Shown: piece after piece, positions 19,876-22,912 of the stretch
Position numbering within the stretch: position 1 is the first letter of the stretch
Layout of the letters: each line of letters starts with the position of its first letter
Translations under genes and position numbers: made by a program
NCBI RefSeq assembly: GCF_001904745.1
Contig: NZ_MRCD01000070.1
Coordinates: forward strand, 1-46,526
DNA length: 46,526 bases
Source: Calothrix sp. HK-06
Lineage (GTDB): Bacteria > Cyanobacteriota > Cyanobacteriia > Cyanobacteriales > Nostocaceae
Direction: 5' to 3'
Notes under the pieces: generated by a model
Databases searched by the model: none
Told to the model about the DNA's origin: nothing
Seen by the model: only the letters and a program-made list of their open reading frames with translations

Positions 19876-21018
19876 TTATTCCCTTCGGGACACTACGTGA
19901 ACACGTAACTTCTGTGTAAATAAATACCCAAAACCAAGTTTCTCCATTATCAAGACAAATTCCTCATCGGTTCGTAATAAAGCTTTGGCTGTCTGGGAAA
20001 TGTTCCAATTATTTTCATCAAGTTTGCCCAAATAGTAAACTCGATTTATTTGCTGTTGAGAAAGGCGATATGTATGTAAATATTCTACCTCTCCATTATC
20101 ACGCAATATAACTTCACCAATATGATTTTCATTACTTACATCTAAAGGTGAATTGACATTTGTCATAAATCGTTGTAGATTAAAACGACCTGCTGTATAT
20201 ACTGTTTTTGATTTTACTGAGCGTCCAATTAATCCAGTTGACATTACTCCTTGATGAAATTTTGTCCAGTCGGAACGCATTTTAACAACAGCACTTCTCA
20301 AATCGGCTAAGTTATTAACTTTCGATGCATCAATAGATAAGCTCATCTCATAAGTTTTATCATATAATGATGCATATTGATATATTAACTCGCCGTAAAA
20401 ATCTTCGAGCAAGGTATAGTGTAAACAAAGGTAGTCTTCAGGTGTGGAGACAACAAACGCTGATGCTAATGCGTCAGCAACATATATTAGTACTCCTACT
20501 TGGTTTGGATGAATTTCAAAAACACGCAGTGCTTCTTCTAACCCAACTATCGCACGTCCTGAATAGGAATATTCGCTACGGCAACCCAACCCATAAGTAA
20601 GTGCATACCTCGAATATTCTTCCCATGCAATTTTGGGGCCATTGAAATATAACGATAGAAAACCTTCCATTGCCAAATGTAATGGTAGAAACCGTAATGA
20701 ATTTTTGGTTTCACGTTTTGCCATACGTTGCATTACTTGCACATTACGTCCACTTTTACCACTTTTACCATCTTTTTTAATAATATCTGCGCCTATATTT
20801 GCTACAGCACTACCATCATCCGCCCAAGACATAACCATTCCATGAGGAATGTAGGACATATACTGCATATCATCTTCGAGTGAAACAACACTATATTTAG
20901 CATCGTAGCTACGACGTTGTAATCGTAAATCTCCACGAATTTTACGACGAATAAGGGGTACAATACGAATACTGCCACAAATTTGAGAAGGGGCAACTTC
21001 AAGTCCTTTTAATAACAT
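19876..21018 (-). CDS. Partner of vWA protein, ARPP-like, 380 aa
   Basis: Second gene of a two-gene operon. I do not firmly recognise it. From memory it resembles the ARPP-2-type proteins that accompany vWA and ADP-ribose-linked genes, but I cannot verify this. There is no signal peptide or membrane helix. Visible parts: SIRIVPLIRRKIRGDLRL near the N-terminus, a basic stretch IIKKDGKSGKSGRN around 80-93, the segment RFLPLHLAMEGFLSLYFNGP, a globular core GLEEALRVFEIHPNQVGVLIYVADAL with ALASAFVVSTPEDYLCLHYTLLEDFY, and a C-terminal part with QTAKALLRTDEEFVLIMEKLGFG that looks like a helix-turn-helix or repeat helix pair. Its position 89 bases after the vWA gene suggests that the two proteins act together. 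Confidence 0.55.
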   Translation of the reverse strand: MLLKGLEVAPSQICGSIRIVPLIRRKIRGDLRLQRRSYDAKYSVVSLEDDMQYMSYIPHGMVMSWADDGSAVANIGADIIKKDGKSGKSGRNVQVMQRMAKRETKNSLRFLPLHLAMEGFLSLYFNGPKIAWEEYSRYALTYGLGCRSEYSYSGRAIVGLEEALRVFEIHPNQVGVLIYVADALASAFVVSTPEDYLCLHYTLLEDFYGELIYQYASLYDKTYEMSLSIDASKVNNLADLRSAVVKMRSDWTKFHQGVMSTGLIGRSVKSKTVYTAGRFNLQRFMTNVNSPLDVSNENHIGEVILRDNGEVEYLHTYRLSQQQINRVYYLGKLDENNWNISQTAKALLRTDEEFVLIMEKLGFGYLFTQKLRVHVVSRRE

Positions 21019-21036
21019 AATTAGTTAGTAGATAAA

Positions 21037-21131
21037 TGGCAACGGGTGTAACGAATGGGTTATGAAAACATAATAAAATCTTATTTCTAATTAATAACTT
21101 ATCCGTTTCATCCGTTCATCATCCGTTGCCA
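21037..21131. repeat. TGGCAACGGAT inverted repeat, copy 1
   Basis: On the minus strand TGGCAACGGATGATGAACGG and following bases pair imperfectly with ATAACCCATTCGTTACACCC and GTTGCCA on the other side, giving a long hairpin between the vWA gene and its partner. Its outer arm encodes the last residues of the vWA protein (WQRMMNG and stop). A second copy is at 27591-27660. It could reduce transcription of the downstream gene or set the two transcripts apart. Confidence 0.7.
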
Positions 21132-22517
21132 TAAATATGCTTCTAGATCAGATAATGTAGTAGAACCTTGAGCAAATTTAGCAAAGCCTAACATTGTAGG
21201 CATATCTTCAGCATCACGTAACCCAACTGTAGGGATATAGGGACTAAGGGTACGCAATGAGTAGTCTTCAGTACTAAATACTGGGTTACAGTGAATAATC
21301 GAGGTTTTATGACAACGGTCGAGTTTTTGATATACACGCAATACTTCAGTGGCGCCGTTGGGTGGGTCATTATCGCAACCGTCAGATACTATAATAATAG
21401 TTTCGGCGCCGGAACCAAGTGCAGCAAGTAATGGTGTAGCTAAATCAGTTTGTCCATATGGATATACAAGTAATGGATGTTTTGGTGGAACCGTCCAAAA
21501 CGCGCGATAGTTTTGTGATGCTGCTTTAAGTAGATAATGTGCAGCAAGTACCACACCCAAAGGACGGCGCCTTTTTTCAGATGAACCAGAGCTAGAATAG
21601 CTACAGTCCAAAACAGCAGCAACTCGTCCTAACTGCATTGGTGCTTTTTTCAAAGCGTTACGAGCAGCAGCTTCCATCGCTTGGCTAAATTTATCAAAAT
21701 CTTTGGTGCGTGCTTCAAGTGAAAGTGACAGAACATATAAAGCTAACTTGGTCAACGGTAAACGCTCCCAATTTACATTTATATCAACTTCACTACGTGA
21801 TGCGGCGCTTTGATAGCGTAGCTTTTCTGCTACAGTCATTTTTGGTTGAATGCGCTTAAGAAAAATTTCACGTTTAATATTATGTTTGGCAGCAAACCCT
21901 TCGGCAATAGTAAAAGGTAATTCATATACTGCCTCAGTACTATAATGCGCTTTGCGGAATTGTTCAAATAATTTTGTATTAAAAGCCTTTTGTTCGTGAA
22001 AATTAAACAAAAACTTAGGAAGCTCACCAGATAGTTTTAAATGAGCATGTGATACTGCCGCTTTAACTTTAGTACGATACTTGATAGCATCAAAATCCAT
22101 ATCTCGACGCATAGCTATATAATCGCGTGCAATGGCTCTGGCACGACGATTATTTACTCGTAATCGCTGTAACTCTTGTAATATGCCCCAACCACGCTGA
22201 GGTGGTAGTTGATTTAGGGCAGATGTAATTAAGGCAGATTCTTCAGTACGATACTGAGGTAATGTATTGCGTCCAGTAGCCAAAAGTTTGATAATAATTT
22301 GTGCTTGATTAAAGTGGTTAATACCAGCAGCTAAAGTGCGAGCATAAAGTAAACGATAATTACCTAATATATAATCATGCAAAAAATTAATAGATAGCTT
22401 TTGCCCATAAGCATCATCATAAAATTCACGCTGACCACTACAAGAAAAGCAAGCATTGATAAACATCACCAAATCTTCCTGCGCTACCTGCTGCGCGCGG
22501 AACTCTAAATTTAACAT
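21108..22517 (-). CDS. TROVE-like protein with C-terminal vWA domain
   Basis: A 469-residue soluble protein. Residues 1-290 are almost entirely helical and basic, reminiscent of the ring of helical repeats in TROVE/Ro60 proteins (ITSALNQLPPQRGWGILQEL, RRARAIARDYIAMRR, SLSLEARTKDFDKFSQAMEAAA). Residues 298-450 form a von Willebrand A domain with a complete metal site: DCSYS at 304-308, Thr357 in YGQTDLATPL and SDG at 378-380. The TDLATPL box is like that of TROVE vWA domains. Ro-type proteins bind misfolded RNA and Y RNA; whether this one binds RNA is inference. It is the first gene of an operon with an unknown partner. The last codons come from a dispersed repeat. Confidence 0.7.
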   Translation of the reverse strand: MLNLEFRAQQVAQEDLVMFINACFSCSGQREFYDDAYGQKLSINFLHDYILGNYRLLYARTLAAGINHFNQAQIIIKLLATGRNTLPQYRTEESALITSALNQLPPQRGWGILQELQRLRVNNRRARAIARDYIAMRRDMDFDAIKYRTKVKAAVSHAHLKLSGELPKFLFNFHEQKAFNTKLFEQFRKAHYSTEAVYELPFTIAEGFAAKHNIKREIFLKRIQPKMTVAEKLRYQSAASRSEVDINVNWERLPLTKLALYVLSLSLEARTKDFDKFSQAMEAAARNALKKAPMQLGRVAAVLDCSYSSSGSSEKRRRPLGVVLAAHYLLKAASQNYRAFWTVPPKHPLLVYPYGQTDLATPLLAALGSGAETIIIVSDGCDNDPPNGATEVLRVYQKLDRCHKTSIIHCNPVFSTEDYSLRTLSPYIPTVGLRDAEDMPTMLGFAKFAQGSTTLSDLEAYLWQRMMNG

Positions 22518-22912
22518 AATATATTAAGACTCAATATAAATTATTAAAAGGGAAAGCAGTTCGGGGAATGTCGGTACGACTTTGTGAGACAGTTTAACAG
22601 ACTGGTACGGAAATCATGCCATAGTCCCGCGAACCACCTTCGTAAATATAGAGTACCCAAATTGTCTTCCCCAAAGCTAATTTTGAGAAAAATGGCTATA
22701 AAGCTTGCAAATATTAGGTTTCCGGAGTTAAGGGAAGCTTGAGTTTCTAGGGGACTCCCTTAAGTTGTCAGCAAAGTATTTAATAATGATTATATTTCTT
22801 CTAATAAATTAAGAAAATATTTTTATTTTAAGACAAATAAAAAATAATGCGGTTAGAATCGAACTGAACTAAAAAGCAAAACATTTTAACAAACCAGTAG
22901 AAAAGTGCATTT
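22518..22912. other. Divergent intergenic stretch, possible RNA
   Basis: It lies between the vWA gene (minus) and the Rpn gene (plus). No gene is clear. GGGGAA at 22563-22568 can pair with TTCCCC at 22667-22672, enclosing about 100 bases that contain the small hairpin GTCGGTACGAC. TTAAGGGA and TCCCTTAA form another hairpin at about 22728-22763. The GC-richer 22555-22680 part differs from the AT-rich flanks. It may be a small RNA or gene debris. Confidence 0.3.

Follow-up and report, generated by a model that had tools for sequence, protein, structure and literature searches.

A candidate Ro/Y-like ribonucleoprotein module in Calothrix sp. HK-06: a vWA protein, a conserved structured RNA and ARPP-2

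Results

A vWA and ARPP-2 gene pair with a structured RNA upstream

We analyzed a stretch of 46,526 nucleotides from Calothrix sp. HK-06 (contig NZ_MRCD01000070.1, hereafter the window), in which the original prediction, made from the sequence alone, had picked out a two-gene module encoding a von Willebrand factor A (vWA) protein of Ro60/TROVE architecture and a partner tentatively named as ARPP-2-like, with a possible RNA nearby. Both open reading frames (ORFs) were found where they had been placed, on the minus strand, and a conserved structured RNA lies just upstream of the vWA gene. The locus is laid out as follows:

22551 to 22640, minus strand: Y-like structured RNA of about 90 nt, with a closing stem carrying one bulged pyrimidine, an inner stem and an apical hairpin
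21108 to 22517, minus strand: TROVE-like vWA gene, 469 aa, with a helical N-terminal part and a C-terminal vWA domain with a full metal ion-dependent adhesion site (MIDAS)
21019 to 21107, minus strand: intergenic gap of 89 bases between the vWA and ARPP-2 genes
19876 to 21018, minus strand: ARPP-2 gene, 380 aa (PF22549 over residues 3-277), with a C-terminal tail that is helix-turn-helix (HTH)-like in some relatives

Since the two genes share a strand and are separated by only 89 bases, they are likely to be carried on one transcript.

The RNA is structurally conserved

When the upstream region of the vWA gene was aligned across six Calothrix-group genomes, a strongly conserved block stood out amid diverged sequence, and the same hairpin was found upstream of the vWA gene in myxobacteria and a planctomycete. 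The RNA that had been suspected nearby is real. Its consensus, derived from 39 sequences, comprises a closing stem with a bulged pyrimidine (C in 25 sequences and U in 14), an internal loop, an inner stem, a conserved UUCCG and a small apical hairpin. The structure has 25 pairs, 96.7% of the cells are paired, and two-sided compensatory changes occur at 20 of the 25 pairs. Cells with two-sided changes numbered 161, compared with 47.5 in shuffled alignments, which ignore the relatedness of the sequences (0 of 500 reached the observed value), and with 20-46 in slid controls, where the paired cells fell to 35-46%. Six of six sequences folded singly into the same bulged hairpin, with z-scores of -2.8 to -8.0.

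A covariance model, R1, was built from this alignment, from which one regular-expression match judged false (L105) had been excluded. No Rfam 15 family matched the RNA above threshold. R1 gave one match in the whole 9.99-Mb home genome, and on this ground a mobile repeat or attC-like DNA element was rejected. ARAGORN reported no tRNA in the window, this program being no test for tRNA-like mimics such as the YrlA domain. We found no description of the RNA or of its link to the vWA gene in the open-access literature, a scope that leaves out most subscription journals.

The RNA is linked to the vWA gene

The RNA preceded the vWA gene on the same strand in all 45 distinct places that were found by protein similarity and had at least 1.2 kb of upstream sequence, spanning cyanobacteria, myxobacteria and planctomycetes. 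Thirty of these supplied the seed alignment and 15 were found by R1, which detected the RNA at 16 distinct places outside its seed. Six of the R1-found places are distant myxobacterial loci with a vWA identity of 39-44% (E 4e-10 to 9e-5, the weakest being the partial L126), and four are planctomycetes. A vWA gene also lay downstream of the RNA in five of five further places that were found through the RNA's DNA and counted apart from the 45 (L113, L114, L115, L117 and L119). In genomes G078 and G101, which carry the vWA gene and ARPP-2 on different contigs and have kept both, the RNA stays with the vWA gene, and R1 finds none at the two ARPP-2-only places. R1 gave no match at 18 canonical TROVE loci. 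In these counts, L164 and L017, equal in length and with the same RNA, were taken once, and L155, equal in length and score to L131, was counted as L131. L033 in G038, with 3 bases upstream, stands outside the RNA count; L129, with 2 bases upstream, shares its genome with L164; and a match to the RNA's DNA in G393 (30 bases, 90%, E 0.006) was excluded.

A small RNA gene or a leader

We read the RNA as a small RNA gene with likely read-through into the operon. In 18 of 30 representatives hand-picked from 57 rows, a TAnnnT box begins 6-17 bases 5' of the model, versus 4, 6 and 5 in control windows, and the planctomycete loci L161-L163 have a TTGnnA box 17 bases before GATACT. In the window, two features lie 5' of the RNA:

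22645 to 22650, minus strand: -10-like box TATATT directly 5' of the RNA, by consensus only and not reported by the promoter scan
22651 to 22770, minus strand: stretch of about 110 bp conserved in Calothrix relatives, a candidate promoter/operator or second RNA

A run of at least four U follows the stem in 9 of the 30 representatives (controls 1 and 5), including four of five planctomycetes. Two tandem copies of the RNA occur in six places, all in the window's family (L068, L070, L072, L081, L117 and L119), and in L114 and L115, where 546 and 577 nt separate the RNA from the vWA gene, an ORF stands between the two; a similar ORF precedes the RNA in L068, L069, L070 and L072. These ORFs, of about 125 aa and starting with MLKLTY or MLKLIY (L068:882-1247; L115:1080-1478), form a third family adjoining the RNA and the vWA gene in the window's family, for which no Pfam match was obtained.

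Alternatively, the RNA could act in cis, as the leader of the vWA mRNA, and let the vWA protein or a ligand control translation or transcription of the operon; there would then be no separate particle. Several observations weigh in this direction and against a discrete RNA gene. The invariable position upstream on the same strand fits a leader, as does the distance between the nearest RNA copy and the extrapolated vWA start, which is 9-165 nt for 48 of the 50 distinct places and very short in Sorangium. U-runs are not general after the RNA, and a consensus scan of the window reported no promoter at the RNA and no terminator following it, the sole promoter-like site there lying between the RNA and the vWA gene. 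However, tandem copies, an intervening ORF and the U-run 3' ends of planctomycetes are all at odds with a leader, and the one switch helix tested (GGGA with a downstream UUCC) was rejected because it showed no covariation. We regard a leader as the main competing account, possible but rather unlikely.

The vWA protein resembles Ro60 at the level of fold

In its predicted secondary structure, the vWA protein is helical up to residue 291, after which the vWA domain begins. As had been proposed, the metal site is complete: the MIDAS motifs DCSYS, TDLATPL and SDG are present, and across 21 diverse vWA homologues D304, S306, S308 and D379 are invariant, with T357 kept in at least 90%. A Foldseek search with the AlphaFold2 (AF2) model returned Ro60 as the sole Protein Data Bank (PDB) matches under 1e-3, and in a VIA-align listing of 50 entries, the matches covering both halves of the protein were all Ro60/TROVE. 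Structure prediction thus gave some resemblance to Ro60/TROVE, the lack of which would have refuted the original prediction; the proposed reading is partly supported, with a likeness at the level of fold but no sequence-level TROVE match.

Several results weigh against a TROVE assignment. PF05731 (TROVE) gave no match at E<=1 in 10 vWA members or at 0.5 in five distant vWA homologues; hhalign against eight closely related TROVE proteins returned probabilities of 4% and 17%, which are not significant; and wider profiles gave no sequence bridge between the two families. The AF2 model superposed only loosely on Ro60 (template modeling score 0.25-0.32, root mean square deviation about 16 Å). Given this loose superposition and the non-significant profile comparison, TROVE membership of the vWA protein is unproven. 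The protein also matched no Pfam family at E<=1, and nothing in NCBIfam, PADLOC or the PDB sequences in a single-sequence search. A separate canonical TROVE gene (PF05731; L047:874-2475; G000:C2, ~132 kb) is present in the home genome, so that two Ro-like proteins coexist there.

The partner is ARPP-2, a homolog of ARPP-1

The second protein matched PF22549 with an E value of 5.6e-115 (383.6 bits versus a curated cut-off of 27), so the family first suggested was the right one. Sequence comparison showed that ARPP-2 is homologous to ARPP-1 (PF20208, whose Alkaliphilus member carries the annotation DUF6569). A glutamine, Q12, is common to all 12 rows compared (five ARPP-1 and seven ARPP-2), whereas the seven ARPP-2 rows are without two cysteines that all five ARPP-1 rows keep; which of them PMC9503650 means as the proposed active-site residue is our inference. 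The QDH and C-[IV]-Q-Q motifs and the CYGS cysteine seen in the ARPP-1 rows are missing from ARPP-2, which carries an additional tail at its C-terminus. Matches to HTH_8 came from 5 of 10 ARPP-2 members at E<=10 and from three of six C-terminal pieces at E<=1, the best at 21.9 bits versus a cut-off of 22; the window's own C-terminal piece gave no HTH_8 match at E<=1. These matches hint at an HTH-like tail in the relatives, which suggests a regulatory or nucleic-acid-binding role for ARPP-2. The structure model of ARPP-2 was poor (predicted local distance difference test 45.9) and was left out of the fold search.

The gene pair is conserved across three phyla

Among 17 loci compared, the nearest relatives are in Calothrix and Dulcicalothrix (88-96% identity), and further ones in a Prochloraceae metagenome-assembled genome (61%), myxobacteria (54-62%) and the planctomycete Rhodopirellula (48%). 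ARPP-2 lies downstream of the vWA gene in 14 of the 17; in the others, the contig ends inside the vWA gene (L017) or the vWA copy is broken and lacks ARPP-2 (L015 and L018). The pairing is therefore conserved, with relatives across three phyla, and the second outcome that would have refuted the original prediction, a pairing not kept in other genomes, did not arise. In L007, an FAD-enzyme ORF and a GNAT ORF sit between the two genes. Within the window's phylum, ARPP-2 was detected in 17 of 386 genomes, and the vWA profile found the same 17 and one weak, partial match (G229, E 1.7e-11) without ARPP-2; the two genes lie within about 1.5 kb in 15 of the 17, G078 and G101 being those with split contigs. 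In the phylum of Sorangium, strong ARPP-2 matches occurred in 8 of 235 genomes, all eight carrying the vWA gene, after exclusion of 9 of 17 myxobacterial ARPP-2 rows as short tail-only matches (E 1.4e-4 to 8.3e-4). In the phylum of Rhodopirellula, the vWA gene was present in 8 of 294 genomes (five strong and three distant).

A second, truncated vWA copy was seen in Sorangium cellulosum So ceGT47 (L018:5874-6531), and the RNA upstream of it matches the model at 85 bits. Three Nostoc plasmids carry the vWA gene, two of them typed as conjugative, and in two Nostoc plasmids a XisH/XisI pair lies between the vWA gene and ARPP-2 (L153:7478-8217 and L155:7499-8238).

Distant vWA homologs adjoin ARPP-1

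Five remote vWA homologs (22-26% identity) were found on the Alkaliphilus plasmid pB6464, in the uncultured phage record LR756500.1 and in three planctomycetes. LR756500.1, of 462 kb, is the one phage record among those searched with a distant vWA homolog; seven viral contig stretches fitted a pattern, and none of them encodes a relative. The next gene encodes ARPP-1 in all five cases, and R1 gave no match at these loci. In one planctomycete (L160:478-2474), ARPP-1 is followed on the same strand by a calcineurin-like phosphoesterase and then an RNA ligase (PF09414, E 8.1e-21, with a PHA02142 OB-fold), neither having relatives elsewhere among 165 sequences save in L149, which is part of the same place. 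A TerD-family gene lies upstream of the pair on the Alkaliphilus plasmid (L156:2006-2773).

These contexts bear on another explanation, in which the vWA protein is a peptide-binding co-chaperone and ARPP acts on ribose or ADP-ribose as part of an antiviral ADP-ribose system, along the lines that PMC9503650 proposes for ARPP-1. That paper suggests that ARPP acts on ribose in ARG operons, and it puts ARPP, vWA and calcineurin-like phosphatase genes in ARG-centered operons. The homology of ARPP-2 to ARPP-1, the phosphoesterase after ARPP-1 in L160, the occurrence of the module on plasmids and that of the distant form in a large phage genome all agree with it. However, ARPP-2 lacks both cysteines of the ARPP-1 rows, a conserved RNA has no place in such a system, a defense database search with PADLOC found nothing, and neither the annotated plasmid stretches nor 20 Pfam-scanned flanking ORFs, a minority of those flanking the pair, showed an ARG, macro or Nudix gene. 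We consider this explanation improbable.

Other neighbors

No shared third neighbor emerged: 6 of 10 flanking ORFs had a Pfam match (L079, L080, L083, L125 and L161), and these were ordinary and differed between loci. The only recurring neighbor was an R2K-clade ATP-grasp ORF, related copies of which lie a few kb from the pair in a myxobacterium (L125:11317-12072) and a phage (L157:1465-2268), followed in the phage by a CYTH-domain ORF. Elsewhere in the window, positions 2805-2883 on the minus strand match a group II intron in Rfam.

Discussion

In animals and some bacteria, damaged RNA is handled by the Ro60-Y RNA particle. We base an analogy with that particle on the shape of the RNA described here, its constant association with the vWA gene and the resemblance of the protein model to Ro60, and we think it fairly probable that the locus encodes a three-part Ro/Y-like ribonucleoprotein module consisting of the vWA protein, a Y-like RNA and an ARPP partner. 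In such a module, the upstream gene would yield a hairpin RNA of about 90 nt with paired ends and a bulged pyrimidine. The vWA protein would most likely bind its closing stem, as Ro60 binds Y RNA, which would stabilize the RNA and control whether damaged or misfolded RNA can reach the protein. The RNA may act as scaffold and gate of the vWA protein, by analogy with the Y RNA of D. radiodurans, and ARPP-2 as a dedicated partner that acts on, or reports, the material captured by the particle.

A wider proposal, which we offer tentatively and regard as rather unlikely in its full form, is that the locus represents an undescribed, horizontally spread class of Ro/Y-like ribonucleoproteins in which a TROVE-like ring is joined by a Y-like RNA family of its own and by an ARPP partner. 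The distant form, on a plasmid, in a large phage and in planctomycetes, would have a possibly catalytic ARPP-1, once with an RNA ligase and a phosphoesterase in line; in cyanobacteria, myxobacteria and other planctomycetes, ARPP-2 would have lost the putative active site and gained an HTH-like tail, coupling RNA capture to gene control or stress defense.

Bacterial Ro-Y particles have generally been sought via recognizable TROVE sequences. If the module works likewise, Ro-like ribonucleoproteins are wider than profile searches show, and culturable cyanobacteria of the Nostoc and Calothrix type would offer a compact setting, with just three parts, for testing the function of bacterial Y RNAs and their partners. 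The RNA constitutes a structured family that spans three phyla and is absent from Rfam 15.

Among known proteins, NorD and other vWA proteins with helical N-terminal parts align well with the vWA domain, but among the 50 entries listed their matches are confined to the vWA half; beside the pair, the flanking ORFs scanned, which are part of the total, included no recognizable MoxR-type ATPase gene. ARPP-1, the homolog of ARPP-2, likewise adjoins distant vWA homologs, in five of five loci. For the closest known bacterial systems, PMC4726728 and PMC7790460 report that in D. radiodurans (RYPER) Rsr is gated by a Y RNA, which also tethers it to PNPase, and that another bacterial arrangement is an rsr-yrlBA-rtcBA operon. 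PMC4726728, which cites Chen et al. 2014 on bacterial Y RNAs, describes Y RNAs as small molecules whose ends pair and whose lower stem has a single bulged nucleotide, the bacterial ones not being homologous to those of vertebrates. Unlike these systems, the module has ARPP-2 as its partner rather than RtcB/RtcA or PNPase, its vWA protein has no detectable TROVE sequence match, and its RNA is outside Rfam, with no R1 match at the 18 canonical TROVE loci. The RNA also differs from the vertebrate Ro60 site, a seven-pair helix with a bulged cytidine and a three-nucleotide bulge opposite, in having four pairs after the bulge and then an internal loop. Like Ro60/Rsr with its Y RNA, however, the module joins a helical part to a vWA domain with a MIDAS, and encodes beside the protein gene a small RNA whose ends pair and whose closing stem has one bulged nucleotide.
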